Shown here one piece after another: positions 8,426 to 32,854 of a stretch of 49,873 nt of DNA. Each line of letters begins with the position of its first letter. The first letter of the stretch is position 1. Source of the DNA: Candidatus Nealsoniibacteriota bacterium (GTDB taxonomy: Bacteria; Patescibacteriota; Minisyncoccia; Minisyncoccales; PWPS01); the NCBI GenBank assembly GCA_003555075.1, contig PWHW01000001.1:1-49873 (forward strand), in the 5' to 3' direction. The notes below the pieces were generated by a model. That model was not told where the DNA came from. It was given only the letters and a program-made list of their open reading frames with translations, and made no database searches. The position numbers and the translations under genes were made by a program.

Positions 8426-8502
8426 TGGCGCCCTCGGCAGGATTCGAACCCGCAACCTTGTGGGCCGAAACCACACGCTCTATCCAATTGAGCTACGAGG
8501 GC
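8426..8502 (-). tRNA. tRNA-Arg(TCG)
   Basis: GCCCTCG/CGAGGGC acceptor, TGTGG-TTTCGGC-CCACA anticodon arm, TTCGAAT T-loop, encoded 3' CCA. Confidence 0.95.
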
Positions 8503-16647: not shown

Positions 16648-16721
16648 TGGAGCGGGCGAGCGGAATCGAACCGCCATCAGTAGCTTGGAAGGCTACGGTT
16701 TTGCCGTTAAACTACGCCCGC
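16648..16721 (-). tRNA. tRNA-Gly(TCC)
   Basis: GCGGGCG/CGCCCGC acceptor, GTAGC-CTTCCAA-GCTAC anticodon arm, TTCGATT T-loop, encoded CCA. Confidence 0.95.
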
Positions 16722-16799: not shown

Positions 16800-16870
16800 T
16801 CGGAGAGCCGGGATTCGAACCCGAACTACATCCTCCCAAAGGATGCGTGCTGCCATTACACCACTCTCCG
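16800..16870 (-). tRNA. tRNA-Pro(TGG)
   Basis: CGGAGAG/CTCTCCG acceptor, CATCC-TTTGGGA-GGATG anticodon arm, TTCGAAT T-loop; no encoded CCA. Confidence 0.94.
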
Positions 16871-26897: not shown

Positions 26898-27848
26898 ATG
26901 AAAATAAAAGATATTTACAAGCTTTCCATTGAGAAAGGAATGGAGTTCGATCCCAGAGGAAAGGAAGAAGCGAAGAAGATCCTTGAAAAAAGGAAAGAGG
27001 AGTACGAAGAAATGAAAAAGGAGGAGAAAGAGGGTTTTGACATGGAGAAACTTTCCAATCCCTATGATGACACCAGAATTCTTTATGGAGATGGAGAAAG
27101 GGAGGTGAAAAAAGTAATGGTCGGAGTGGATATAGACGGTGAGGAGCTTTTGCTCGCTCGTTATTTGGGAGATATTGATCTTGTTATTTCTCACCACCCT
27201 AGAGGAAATGCGTTGGCAGGGCTTGACGGGGTGATGGAGCTTCAAATAGACATGCTTCACAAGTACGGAGTTCCTGTGAATATTGCCGAAAAATTGCTTG
27301 AAAAAAGGATCAAAGAGGTATCAAGAAGCCTTTCTCCGGCCAATCACCAAAGAGCGGTAGATACAGCAAGAATTCTGGATATACCTTTCATGTGCATTCA
27401 CACTCCTTGTGATAATATGGTAGCTGATTTTGTCGAAAGGAAGATTGAAAAAGATGAACCTTCGAAGTTAGGGGACGTAATAAGATCTCTAAAAGAAATA
27501 CCCGAATACAAGAGAGCTTCGATGCTTGGCGCGGGTCCCGAACTTTTTACGGGAAATAAAAGAAGTAGGGCCGGAAAGATCCTTCTTACTGAGATCACGG
27601 GCGGAACAGAAGGGTCTGCAGATATCTACGAAAAGCTTGCACAAATAGGAGCAGGAACCATTGTCGGAATGCATCTTTCTGAAAAAAATAGAGAGGCGGC
27701 GGAAAAAGCGCATATCAATGTGGTGATTGCCGGGCACATATCTTCTGACTCCATAGGGATCAATCTTTTCTTGGATGAAATAGAAAAGAAAAGGGTGGAA
27801 ATAACTTCTTGCTCAGGACTTATCAGGCACTCCAGAAGAAAGAAATGA
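26898..27848 (+). CDS. NIF3/DUF34 family dinuclear metal center protein
   Basis: VGVDIDGEELLLARYLGDIDLVISHHPRGNAL, FMCIHTPCDN, IGAGTIVGMHLSEKNREAAEKAHINVVIAGHISSDSIGIN. Confidence 0.82.
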   Translation: MKIKDIYKLSIEKGMEFDPRGKEEAKKILEKRKEEYEEMKKEEKEGFDMEKLSNPYDDTRILYGDGEREVKKVMVGVDIDGEELLLARYLGDIDLVISHHPRGNALAGLDGVMELQIDMLHKYGVPVNIAEKLLEKRIKEVSRSLSPANHQRAVDTARILDIPFMCIHTPCDNMVADFVERKIEKDEPSKLGDVIRSLKEIPEYKRASMLGAGPELFTGNKRSRAGKILLTEITGGTEGSADIYEKLAQIGAGTIVGMHLSEKNREAAEKAHINVVIAGHISSDSIGINLFLDEIEKKRVEITSCSGLIRHSRRKK

Positions 27849-27874: not shown

Positions 27875-29425
27875 TTAAAGTTCTTTGATCATGTAAGTTC
27901 TTTTTAGCTTGTACCCCATTCTTCTCCAATAGTTTCTTACGCCGACCCCTGATATAACGGCGAGGTACTTTCTCCCAAACTCTTTTTCTGCAATACTCTC
28001 AGCCTCTTTTATGAGCCTTTTCCCCATTCCTCGATGCTGGGGGGAGTCTTCACTTTTTGATTCAAAGGGAAGTTGTCTTCCATAGGTTCTTATTTCTCTT
28101 ATAACGGACATGTTCCTCAATAGAGGAAACGAAGAATTGCGTTCATCTCGCAATCTGAGCAAGGCATAAAGTTTCCCCCTTTCCTTGTTCTCGATACTCA
28201 AGAACAATTCTTTTCCCCCCGAGGCTTCGTAATCCTCTCTAAAGAGAGAGAGTTCTTCTTCAGGATTATACTCTTCTTTCACCTCTCTGCATCTTATACA
28301 CTTGCATTGCCAGTTATTCTTTATTTGATCATTTTTTATTACTTCTCTTAGATTGGAGATCTTACATCCTCCTTCTATGTCTTGCACGGGAATATCTCTG
28401 AAAAGCCTTTGAATTCTAACGTACCGGGGTATAGTGTTCTTTTTTATCTCTATTATCAATCTTGCCAACTCCTTGTCTTTATAGACTCTGTGTTCTCCTC
28501 TTTTAAAAAGATCATAAAGAGGAGTGTTTTTTATGACCAGACAAGGATAAATTTTTAAGAAGTCCGGTTTGAACTCAGGATTAGCGAAAAGCTCTGTAAA
28601 TGTATCCAGGTCTTCCCGGTAAGAGCTTTTGGGAAGATTGAGCATCATTTGATAGCACACCTTGAATCCGGCTTTCTTTAAAAGTTTAGTTGCTTTTATT
28701 GTCTCTTTTCTCCCGTGTCCTCTTTTTGTGAAAAATAATACTTTATCCGATAAAGATTGAACTCCCATTTCTACCATTGTCACTCCGAATCTTCGTAATC
28801 TGAGCACTTCTTTTTTCGTGATATAGTCAGGTCTTGTCTCAATTGAAAGACATACTATTCTATGCAACGCCTTTTCGTTTTTCTTTTTTGCTTCCTCAAG
28901 AGTATTACTTTCTTCCTTATTGCATGCATCGTAACATTTTTTTATAAACCATTCTTTATATTTCTCGGAGTAAAAAGACCATGTTCCGCCTACTATGCGA
29001 AGCTCTATTTTCCCTGTGGGATGCCCTGTTTTACTGAGGGCTTCTATTCTTTTTTTTACTTGTCTTTCGGGATGATAATCATTCTTGAGCGCTCGCATCG
29101 CGGCTGGTTCTCCTTTGAGATAACTTTTTGGCATCCCTTTTTCTTCGGGGCAATAGATGCATTTTCCGGGACAAGGGAAGGGTTTTGTAAGAACGGACAC
29201 ATTAACCACTCCCGAGAGAGAGCGAACGGGACGTGTTCTTAGAAGCGAAAGTATTTTTTGATTCCTTCCCTTCATTTTTTGATATTCTTGTAGTAAACTT
29301 GCGTTAGTAGGGAAAGAGATCTTTCGCTTTTTCGATATTTTTCTCTTTATGCTCTCCAGCTCCTTTTTGGAGTTTACTCTTCCTTCTATCAATTTTTTGA
29401 TTATTTCTCTTTTTCCTTCTGTCAT
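27875..29425 (-). CDS. Elp3-like radical SAM / GNAT tRNA U34 carboxymethyltransferase
   Basis: FPCPGKCIYCPEEKGMPKSYLKGEPAAMRALKNDYHPERQVKKRIEALSKTGHPTGKIELRIVGGTWSFY (CxxxCxxC), C-terminal GNAT HRGMGKRLIKEAESIAEKEFGRKYLAVISGVGVRNYWRRMGYKL. Confidence 0.93.
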   Translation of the reverse strand: MTEGKREIIKKLIEGRVNSKKELESIKRKISKKRKISFPTNASLLQEYQKMKGRNQKILSLLRTRPVRSLSGVVNVSVLTKPFPCPGKCIYCPEEKGMPKSYLKGEPAAMRALKNDYHPERQVKKRIEALSKTGHPTGKIELRIVGGTWSFYSEKYKEWFIKKCYDACNKEESNTLEEAKKKNEKALHRIVCLSIETRPDYITKKEVLRLRRFGVTMVEMGVQSLSDKVLFFTKRGHGRKETIKATKLLKKAGFKVCYQMMLNLPKSSYREDLDTFTELFANPEFKPDFLKIYPCLVIKNTPLYDLFKRGEHRVYKDKELARLIIEIKKNTIPRYVRIQRLFRDIPVQDIEGGCKISNLREVIKNDQIKNNWQCKCIRCREVKEEYNPEEELSLFREDYEASGGKELFLSIENKERGKLYALLRLRDERNSSFPLLRNMSVIREIRTYGRQLPFESKSEDSPQHRGMGKRLIKEAESIAEKEFGRKYLAVISGVGVRNYWRRMGYKLKRTYMIKEL

Positions 29426-29501
29426 GATTAACGAAAATTGATTGTTTGTTATGAGAATTTATTTGGAGATATTTTAAGTCACAGCTTTCTAATTCTATTT
29501 T

Positions 29502-30176
29502 ATGAAAAAAGAAGATGCAAAAAGAATAATGGAAAGATTAAAGGAGGATTATGATCTCATATCTTCTTCTTTTGCAAAGAACAGAGAGAGGGTTTGGCCG
29601 GAAATGAAGTTTCTTTTTGATAAGGCAAAAAAGGAAGAAAGGGTCTTGGATTTAGGATGCGGGAATGGACGATTTTCACAGTATCTCGAGCACACTCATT
29701 ATACAGGAATTGATTTTTCGGAAAAGATGATAAGTGAGGCGAAAGCGAGATTTCCAAAAAAAGATTTTTTAGTAGGCGATGCTCTTTCTCTTCCTTTTCA
29801 GGACAATTCTTTTGACAGAGTCTATAGTATAGCGGTGATTCATCAGATACCTTCAGAAGCTCTCAGAATAGAGGCTCTTAAAGAAATAAAGAGAGTTCTA
29901 AAACCGGAAGGAAGGCTATATATTACGGTTTGGAATATATGGAAGAACAACAAGTTCTTTTGTGTAAAACAAATGATGTTAAATTTTTTCTTTTCACGCT
30001 CTTTGGGACCGAGGGACATAATTTTGAAAAGGGACAGATATTATTATGTTTTTCGGAAAAAAGAACTTTCCCGTCTTGCTGAAAAAGCAGAGCTTTCTCC
30101 GGAGGAAGAGGGGCTGGTAGAGGAAGGGAAGAGAAGTAATTTTTATCTCATTGCAAAGAAAGAGAAAAAGAAGTAG
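29502..30176 (+). CDS. SAM methyltransferase resembling the Trm9/ALKBH8 MTase domain
   Basis: YDLISSSFAKNRERVWPEMKFLFDKAKKEERVLDLGCGNGRFSQYLEHTHYTGIDFSEKMISEAKARFPKKDFLVGDALSLPFQDNSFDRVYSIAVIHQIPSEALRIEALKEIKRVLKPEGRLYITVWN matches the Trm9 hallmark pattern. Confidence 0.8.
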   Translation: MKKEDAKRIMERLKEDYDLISSSFAKNRERVWPEMKFLFDKAKKEERVLDLGCGNGRFSQYLEHTHYTGIDFSEKMISEAKARFPKKDFLVGDALSLPFQDNSFDRVYSIAVIHQIPSEALRIEALKEIKRVLKPEGRLYITVWNIWKNNKFFCVKQMMLNFFFSRSLGPRDIILKRDRYYYVFRKKELSRLAEKAELSPEEEGLVEEGKRSNFYLIAKKEKKK

Positions 30177-30408: not shown

Positions 30409-30873
30409 ATGGAAAAGAAAAAATATTATCTAACCAAAGAAGGATTGAACAGAATAAGGAAAGAGTATGAGGATCTCAAAGAAAAAAGAAGAGAAAAGCT
30501 TAAAAATGAAGCACCGGAGGTGTTCCATTCCGAGGATGTGAATCCTGAGTATCTTACTTTCCGAAGAGATCTTGGCATTCTGGAAGAAAAGATTTCCAAA
30601 ATGGAAGAGGTGTTGAATAATGTGGAAATAATAAGTTCGCCGGAAGAAGGTTGCAAGGAAGTCAAATTGGGAGCTCGAGTTACCATAGAGGCCGGAGGGC
30701 AAGAGGATGAATTCCATCTCGTAGGAACAATGGAGGCCGACCCGAATCTTGGTAAGATATCCAACGAATCCCCGGTTGGTAGAGCTTTAATGGGTCGAAA
30801 GGAGGGGGAAGAGGTTCCGGTTTCTTCTCCTATAAAAACAGTGTATAAAATTAAGAAAGTTCGTTATCAATGA
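30409..30873 (+). CDS. greA: Transcription elongation factor GreA/GreB family
   Basis: MEKKKYYLTKEGLNRIRKEYEDLKEKRREKL coiled coil, C-terminal EDEFHLVGTMEADPNLGKISNESPVGRALMGRKEGEEV. Confidence 0.93.
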   Translation: MEKKKYYLTKEGLNRIRKEYEDLKEKRREKLKNEAPEVFHSEDVNPEYLTFRRDLGILEEKISKMEEVLNNVEIISSPEEGCKEVKLGARVTIEAGGQEDEFHLVGTMEADPNLGKISNESPVGRALMGRKEGEEVPVSSPIKTVYKIKKVRYQ

Positions 30874-31502
30874 AAGGAATATTGAACCTTCTAAAAAAAG
30901 TGGGTACTTTAAAGGAGAAGCCCAGAAGAGGGTGGGTCATTCATGGAATAGATAATCCCGAGACCACCGCCGAACATATTTTTCACACAACTTTTTTAGT
31001 ATGGATCATTGGCAAAAGAAAGGATATTGATCTGGAAAGAGCCATTAAAATGGCTCTCATACATGATATTTGTGAGGTGTATGCTCCGGACATCACTCCT
31101 TCCGATACCAAAGGGCTTAGCGAAGAAAATATTGAAAGAAATGAGATACTCCATGAAAAACTCAACAAAGGTTATCCCACTACCGAGCAGAGAAAGAAGA
31201 TGGAAACAATAAAAAAGAATCTGGAGAATGATGCTATGGGAAAATTATTGGAAGGAACTGAGGGTGATTTGGAGAAAGAGGTTTGGGACCTTTGGAATGA
31301 ATACGAGGGAATGGTCACTCCGGAGAGCAAGTTCGTAAAACAAGTGGACAGAATAATAAATCTTTTCCAGGGATTGGAGTATCATAAAGAATATGAGAAT
31401 ATTGAATACGAACTTTGGATAAAAAGAGCGAAAGAGGTGATTGACGATCCGGACCTCTTAAAGCTTCTTGAAGAGATAGAGAGAGATATAAGCGAAAAGT
31501 AG
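30870..31502 (+). CDS. HD domain protein, HDDC2/YfbR-like
   Basis: RRGWVIHGIDNPETTAEHIFHTTFLVW, ALIHDICEVYAPDITP, FVKQVDRIINLFQGLEYHKEY. Confidence 0.85.
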   Translation: MKGILNLLKKVGTLKEKPRRGWVIHGIDNPETTAEHIFHTTFLVWIIGKRKDIDLERAIKMALIHDICEVYAPDITPSDTKGLSEENIERNEILHEKLNKGYPTTEQRKKMETIKKNLENDAMGKLLEGTEGDLEKEVWDLWNEYEGMVTPESKFVKQVDRIINLFQGLEYHKEYENIEYELWIKRAKEVIDDPDLLKLLEEIERDISEK

Positions 31503-31573: not shown

Positions 31574-32854
31574 ATGAAGGATGTTCTAATTTTTTTATCG
31601 GAGGCGGGAAAACTCAAGGAGATGAAAAGAAGGGGGTGGGTGATAAATCGCATCAAGAATCCCGAGACGATCGCGGAACATATTTTTCGTGCCGCGATAA
31701 TGGGATGGATGTTGGGAAGAAAAAAAGAGAGTCTTGATACGGGAAGCCTCATTAAGACGGCTCTTGCTCACGATCTTTGCGAGGTTTATGCAGGAGATAT
31801 TACTCCCTATGACTCTGTGCTTCCTGATAGTGAAGAGGAGCTACGAAAGCTTATGAGAACCTGGCCGAGGTTTTCTTCTTCCCAGAAAGAAAAAAATAAC
31901 AACAAGAAGCACTTAAAGGAAAAAGCTTCTTTGAGAAAGCTTACTAGCATATTATCTTCTCGTCCCTTCAAGGGGGAGTTGATGGAGCATTGGATGGACT
32001 ATGAAAAGAGAATTACTTCTGAAGGAAAGTTCTTCAATCAGGCCGACAGAATGGAAAATTTTTTACAAGCTTACGAGTATTGGGAAAAATACAAGAAGCC
32101 TCCGTTGGAACCCTGGTGGATATGGGCGAGGGAATTTTTTGACGACCCTCTCTTGCTTGAGTTCATGGAAATTTTGGAGCTTAGATTTCATAGGCGTGAA
32201 ATACCCGAAGAACTGGAATCTTCTTATTCTATGGTGAGATTCTTTAATAGGATATGTGATCTTAAAAGGAAACCCAGAAGAGGGTGGGTGATTCACGAAA
32301 TAGAAGGGGCTGAGACCACGGCAGAGCATCTGTATCATACTTCTCTCTTAACTTGGATCTTGGGAAGCGAAAGAAAGGATATTAATTTGGAAAAAGCCTT
32401 AAAGATCGCTTTAGTTCATGACATATGCGAGGTATGTGCTCCGGACTTTACCTCTTATGATGCCGCCTCACTCTCAGAGAATAAGAAGATCACAGAAGAA
32501 GAAATAGGTAATATAAGGCCGATCAAGAAGCGTCCCACAAAAAAACAAAGAGAAAAGATGGAGCTTATAAAAAAAGAAATGAAAAACGAAGCCATTGATA
32601 ACGTGGTCAAAGGGCTGAGTAGTGATATTGGGAAAGAGGTTCGTGATTTATGGAAAGAGTATCAAGAAGAGAAAGGTGTGGAGGGTGTTTTTGTGAGGCA
32701 ATGCAATCAAGCAATAAATCTCTTTCAAGGAATGGAGTATCACAGGAAATATGATAGAATTGACCGTAAACTTTGGATAAAAAGAGCAAAAGAGGTAATT
32801 GACGACCCTCAAGTCCTGGAATTTGTGAAAGTCATGGAGAAGGACGAAAAATAG
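31574..32854 (+). CDS. Fused tandem double-HD protein (HDDC2/YfbR-like x2)
   Basis: First module RRGWVINRIKNPETIAEHIF...ALAHDLCEVYAGDITPYD...NQADRMENFLQAYEYWEKY; second RRGWVIHEIEGAETTAEHLYHT...ALVHDICEVCAPDFTSYD...RQCNQAINLFQGMEYHRKY. Confidence 0.85.
   Translation: MKDVLIFLSEAGKLKEMKRRGWVINRIKNPETIAEHIFRAAIMGWMLGRKKESLDTGSLIKTALAHDLCEVYAGDITPYDSVLPDSEEELRKLMRTWPRFSSSQKEKNNNKKHLKEKASLRKLTSILSSRPFKGELMEHWMDYEKRITSEGKFFNQADRMENFLQAYEYWEKYKKPPLEPWWIWAREFFDDPLLLEFMEILELRFHRREIPEELESSYSMVRFFNRICDLKRKPRRGWVIHEIEGAETTAEHLYHTSLLTWILGSERKDINLEKALKIALVHDICEVCAPDFTSYDAASLSENKKITEEEIGNIRPIKKRPTKKQREKMELIKKEMKNEAIDNVVKGLSSDIGKEVRDLWKEYQEEKGVEGVFVRQCNQAINLFQGMEYHRKYDRIDRKLWIKRAKEVIDDPQVLEFVKVMEKDEK

Follow-up and report, generated by a model that had tools for sequence, protein, structure and literature searches.

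The mcm5U chemistry at position U34 of tRNA is regarded as eukaryotic, with predictions in a few archaea. In eukaryotes two catalytic proteins act in sequence: Elp3, as part of Elongator, and Trm9 in complex with Trm112 (or ALKBH8 with TRMT112). For archaea of the genera Haloferax and Sulfolobus a stand-alone Elp3 together with a Trm9 homolog has been predicted (PMC2584109, PMC5372719), and the clustering of both genes in Sulfolobus solfataricus was noted in 2008 (PMC2584109). The bacterial MnmE-MnmG(-MnmC) pathway acts on the same position with presumably the same role in decoding, using different enzymes and a different chemistry. Thiolation by MnmA is shared by this bacterial pathway and the gene pair described below. 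A 2019 paper described Elp3 as rare in bacteria and named the stand-alone Elp3 of Dehalococcoides mccartyi (DmcElp3) as one such example (PMC6367351); according to a 2026 paper numerous bacteria have Elp3 (PMC13315578). For the Trm112-dependent methyltransferases a 2017 review reported that no homologs were detectable in bacteria (PMC5372719). Our search of the literature accessible without subscription returned no publication on Elp3 in Parcubacteria or the candidate phyla radiation, and none on wobble tRNA modification in Patescibacteria.

Here we characterize a bacterial locus that encodes an Elp3 next to a Trm9-type methyltransferase. The mcm5U pathway as such is already known from eukaryotes and predicted in some archaea; what we rate as new is a bacterial form that lacks Trm112 and replaces MnmE/MnmG. 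If the reading put forward below is true, we found no earlier description of a bacterial mcm5U system, and none simpler would be known anywhere. A bacterial two-gene version without MnmE and MnmG would redraw the map of how purine-ending codons are decoded across life, and a Trm112-free Trm9 would serve mechanistic work. The nucleoside content of Patescibacteria provides a clear test of such a two-gene pathway.

The divergent gene pair

The window, i.e. the whole stretch of 49,873 nucleotides that was analysed, is an entire contig (C7) of a 610-kb genome that comprises 12 contigs and has a completeness rating of 100%. Its closest named public relatives are Candidatus Nealsonbacteria (Patescibacteria), with 59% identity in the methyltransferase. 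An initial annotation of the window had described Elp3-like and Trm9-like ORFs in divergent adjacency at 27875-30176, and we recovered both at exactly these coordinates. The elp3 gene (27875..29425, minus strand) encodes a radical SAM and GNAT enzyme of 516 aa that is predicted to form cm5U34 from U34, SAM and acetyl-CoA. The gene of the Trm9-type SAM methyltransferase (29502..30176, plus strand) encodes 224 aa, with a predicted esterification of cm5U34 to mcm5U34. The two start codons are separated by 76 bp (29426..29501), a divergent intergenic region that presumably holds both promoters; the sigma-70-like matches around it are weak, describe the surroundings only and are not evidence of function.

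On its other side elp3 adjoins a divergent DUF34/NIF3-like protein (26898-27848), homologs of which stand beside elp3 and the methyltransferase gene in 25 of the 70 loci with the divergent arrangement. Beyond the methyltransferase follow an HD-domain protein (HD_3/YfbR-like, 30870-31502) and, 3' of it, a 426-aa protein (31574-32854) that looks like two more copies of this HD domain in a tandem fusion.

We propose that the two genes constitute a minimal two-enzyme U34 pathway that is Trm112-free and fills the role of MnmE/MnmG, and we put the probability of this reading at roughly 0.8. Elp3 alone, without Elp1, 2 and 4-6, would use radical SAM chemistry and acetyl-CoA to attach a carboxymethyl group to C5, yielding cm5U34. 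To our knowledge, other Elongator subunits are not expected alongside a prokaryotic Elp3. The methyltransferase, acting without Trm112, would subsequently methylate the carboxylate of cm5U34 with SAM to give mcm5U34. Together with MnmA, which is encoded elsewhere in the genome, the pair is expected to yield mcm5s2U in tRNA-Lys(UUU), tRNA-Glu(UUC) and tRNA-Gln(UUG); tRNA-Arg(UCU) and tRNA-Gly(UCC) would carry mcm5U. We infer this product and these substrates for the pair. In this way the pair would take over the role held by MnmE/MnmG in most bacteria. The two catalytic proteins and the reaction order would be those of the eukaryotic pathway, with conserved active-site residues. In contrast to that pathway, the genes are adjacent and divergent, the genome contains no Trm112 match, and the s2 group would come from MnmA instead of Ncs6/Urm1. 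A compact two-gene mcm5U pathway had already been suggested in the initial annotation. It gains support from the identities of the two genes, in particular the grouping of the methyltransferase with Trm9, from the conservation of catalytic residues, from the co-occurrence and shared loss of the genes, and from the absence of Trm112 and MnmE/MnmG matches.

Elp3 and its active site

The window Elp3 matched TIGR01211 over its full length (protein 7-516 on model 1-522) with 554.7 bits at a cut-off of 350. The complete Elp3-type architecture claimed for it, a CxxxCxxC radical SAM motif plus GNAT, was thus found, with the Fe-S cysteines conserved as C85-x3-C89-x2-C92. Its best match in the PDB was MinElp3 from Methanocaldococcus infernus (6ia8, E 4.6e-131), and Dehalococcoides and eukaryotic Elp3 structures were among the other top matches. 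The N-terminal domain (ELP3_N, PF23613) is present, in contrast to DmcElp3, the bacterial stand-alone member of the same family, in which this region is reportedly missing.

The residues probed by mutagenesis in MinElp3 (PMC6367351, PMC13315578) were mapped through the 6ia8 alignment, for which a single offset fits all positions. MinElp3 K150, E207, K266, K302, Y304 and Y517 correspond to the identical residues K139, E196, K255, K291, Y293 and Y499 in the window protein. Q461 is replaced by E444, and a Glu is also found in DmcElp3 (E386). This is the only residue reported as essential in MinElp3 that is not kept. H463 is replaced by R446; the H463A mutant of MinElp3 retains activity (PMC6367351). 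The linker cysteines C374, C376 and C379 are kept as well. Judged by its sequence, the window protein looks like a complete, active Elp3.

Elp3 was for a long time described as a lysine acetyltransferase, and work on its homologs still follows this view. The window Elp3 might accordingly acetylate proteins or catalyse some other radical SAM reaction, with the pair acting outside tRNA modification. This we find barely credible: the residues of the radical SAM site and of the acetyl-CoA site that are required for tRNA modification are kept, and the Elp3 family modifies tRNA in archaea in vitro (PMC13315578).

Identity of the methyltransferase

For the protein encoded at 29502-30176, METHYLTRANSFERASE, the curated Pfam and NCBIfam models yielded only generic labels of class I or UbiE-like methyltransferases. 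No curated NCBIfam cut-off was exceeded, and no Trm9 model was among the NCBIfam matches listed. The best of these was UbiE with 78.0 bits, below the UbiE/MenG family cut-off of 158.35 bits.

A closer relation emerged from structure-linked searches. The best PDB match was the Trm9 of Yarrowia (YlTrm9, 5cm2_Z), with an E-value of 5e-17 for the single sequence; YlTrm9 5cm2 again came first when a profile of 22 orthologs was used (E 3e-25). In the reverse direction, with YlTrm9 as query and the complete ORF set of the genome as target, the window methyltransferase was the sole match (5e-18), making the two reciprocal best hits. A Foldseek search with the AlphaFold model of the methyltransferase (pLDDT 89.6) ranked 3sm3 first and Trm9 5cm2 second; a fold comparison of such a model alone does not decide between Trm9 and other class I methyltransferases.

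The motifs quoted earlier as a Trm9/ALKBH8 signature are present in the protein. In yeast Trm9 (ScTrm9), mutation of R29, H115, R241, Y243 or N271 impairs tRNA binding and activity (PMC5372719). These residues appear to correspond to R28, H114, R179, Y181 and N213 of the window methyltransferase, an assignment to yeast numbers that rests partly on spacing. Among 81 relatives conservation was high for R28 (80/80), H114 (72/81), R179 (66/79) and N213 (73/79), and the tryptophan of the VW motif, W144, was kept in 80/80 orthologs. The second Tyr of the C-terminal RYY is relaxed among the relatives (Y/F/V/I). In paralogous methyltransferases the Trm9 diagnostic residues are mostly missing.

We also calculated a tree that contained the orthologs, YlTrm9, the 22 nearest paralogous methyltransferases and two outgroups from the PDB. 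The orthologs and YlTrm9 formed one split with a UFBoot value of 93, apart from the 22 related methyltransferases; the only Trm9/ALKBH8 reference in this tree was YlTrm9, a single eukaryotic Trm9. PDB matches, reciprocal best hit, residues and tree agree in placing the enzyme with Trm9, as first annotated, and not with its nearest paralogs.

The generic labels would suit a UbiE/BioC-like small-molecule methyltransferase that lies beside elp3 by chance. This explanation is already disfavoured, and we hold it to be highly improbable: the reciprocal best hit, the Trm9-specific C-terminal RYY and N residues and the tree speak against it, as do a divergent adjacency conserved in tens of families and the joint loss of the two genes (see below). 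We filed the protein as a Trm9-type enzyme and not as a Trm9-Trm112 holoenzyme, because Trm9 is defined by its complex with Trm112 and the window genome gave no PF03966 match for such a partner.

Pairing of the two genes across genomes

Co-occurrence was determined in a sample of 119 genomes of the order, where methyltransferase orthologs were accepted at E < 1e-25, a threshold placed where the ranked scores show a break. The methyltransferase was found in 79 genomes, Elp3 in 87 and both in 77, such that 77/79 genomes with the methyltransferase also carried Elp3 (Fisher p 3e-17, uncorrected for relatedness; z about 5.0 for the association stratified by family). The adjacency of the two genes is not due to chance, because 76/77 pairs share a contig, all 76 of these are divergent, and 68 of the 76 have less than 300 b between the genes (median gap 25.5 b). 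In the sample of 211 genomes from the phylum the methyltransferase occurred in 54, every one of which (54/54) had Elp3, and 48 pairs were divergent and within 1.5 kb. The two genes thus co-occur and stay adjacent in both samples. The initial annotation saw a single locus; the pairing actually characterizes much of the Patescibacteria.

Among 80 named loci, Elp3 was directly upstream of the methyltransferase and divergent in 70, a count that takes in three loci where Elp3 and the methyltransferase match overlap by only several bases. The pair-bearing loci belong to Nealson-, Staskawicz-, Portnoy-, Berkel-, Magasanik-, Komeili- and Peregrinibacteria among others. The same pair was seen in contigs of MAGs labelled Nanoarchaeia (L052) and Ignavibacteriales (L095). 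We read these as probably misbinned Patescibacteria contigs and did not count them toward a wider spread of the pair.

The two genes are also lost together. Eight families (f1, f2, f9, f16, f19, f21, f33, f43) vary solely in having both genes or neither, and two congeners of the window genome have neither. Joint loss within at least eight families is the outcome, with absence calls that depend on MAG completeness; many of these genomes are rated > 95% complete. The distance matrices of Elp3 and the methyltransferase were correlated (Mantel r 0.73, compared to 0.19 for the best of 999 permutations), a sign of co-inheritance in which the common history of the species is also contained.

Elp3 without the methyltransferase was found in ten genomes of the order. 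They include the entire family f5 (G004, G050, G077, G097, G113), in which all members carry Elp3 and none a methyltransferase ortholog. Because these ten genomes have Elp3 alone, the second step is dispensable. In family f5 the modification may end at cm5U or at some other derivative.

Search for Trm112

PF03966, the model for Trm112, had no match anywhere in the assembly of the window genome, so that the lack of a Trm112-like protein, first noted for the window, extends to the whole genome. The model was positive in the controls Haloferax volcanii and Sulfolobus acidocaldarius; archaea possess Trm112, in contrast to the bacterial genome studied here, which gave no match. Within the order 6/119 genomes had a match above the cut-off, each within an ORF of 246-365 aa, perhaps as a methyltransferase fusion. 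One of the six carries the Elp3/methyltransferase pair (G060, match at G060:C51:591-734). We infer that the methyltransferase is independent of Trm112; for a Trm112-free Trm9 we found no precedent in the literature accessible to us.

An alternative is that the methyltransferase does act on the Elp3 product, but that the modification ends in a different cm5U derivative or that the enzyme needs a partner protein unrelated in sequence to Trm112. We consider this unlikely. U34 products in archaea are diverse, for instance ncm5U in Thermoplasma (PMC5372719), which would fit another derivative; the residues that position the substrate in Trm9 are, however, kept in the methyltransferase. Known Trm9 enzymes, those of eukaryotes, require Trm112 (PMC5372719), which points to a partner. 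PF03966 is a model of only 40 positions, such that a diverged Trm112-type partner could escape it, and a 74-aa ORF in a pair-bearing genome (G090) scored just below its cut-off. On the other hand, the 70 loci show no third gene that stays with the pair, the next commonest neighbour appearing in 25, which argues against a dedicated partner. The two-enzyme pathway in its full form, in which Patescibacteria use a two-gene, eukaryote-type mcm5(s2)U34 pathway with a self-sufficient, Trm112-independent Trm9 in place of MnmE/MnmG, has in our view somewhat better than even odds.

U34 modification enzymes and tRNAs

In most bacteria U34 is modified at C5 by MnmE and MnmG. Neither exceeded its cut-off in any genome of the order (0/119 each), while both models were positive in the expected control genomes. 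Within the phylum sample MnmG was detected in 5/211 genomes and never together with Elp3; with five MnmG genomes this zero overlap has a P of 0.09, so that mutual exclusion across the phylum is only suggestive. Neither Elp3 nor MnmG was found in 127/211 genomes of the phylum, and most of Patescibacteria seem to be without both known classes of C5-U34 pathway. MnmA, which carries out the 2-thiolation, is present in 104/119 genomes of the order, with or without Elp3. It is also present in the window genome, and mcm5s2U would therefore be possible.

The three U34 tRNAs first reported for the window were all found by ARAGORN, each on the minus strand. tRNA-Gly(UCC) (16648..16721) is a likely substrate, being an mcm5U tRNA in yeast (PMC5372719). 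tRNA-Pro(UGG) (16800..16870) and tRNA-Arg(UCG) (8426..8502) are possible substrates. The whole genome encodes the U34 tRNAs Lys(UUU), Glu(UUC), Gln(UUG), Arg(UCU), Gly(UCC) and Leu(UAA), with a C34 partner for each. Such a full split-box set of U34 and C34 tRNAs fits a U34 that is tuned toward A-ending codons.

In addition, the genome encodes a tRNA-Ile(UAU) (L137 10633-10707). TilS (TIGR02432) stayed below its cut-off throughout the genome, where the sole weak match was MnmA. Because of these two observations a U34 tRNA, instead of one with lysidine, apparently decodes AUA, and U34 modification may matter here for avoiding the misreading of AUG.
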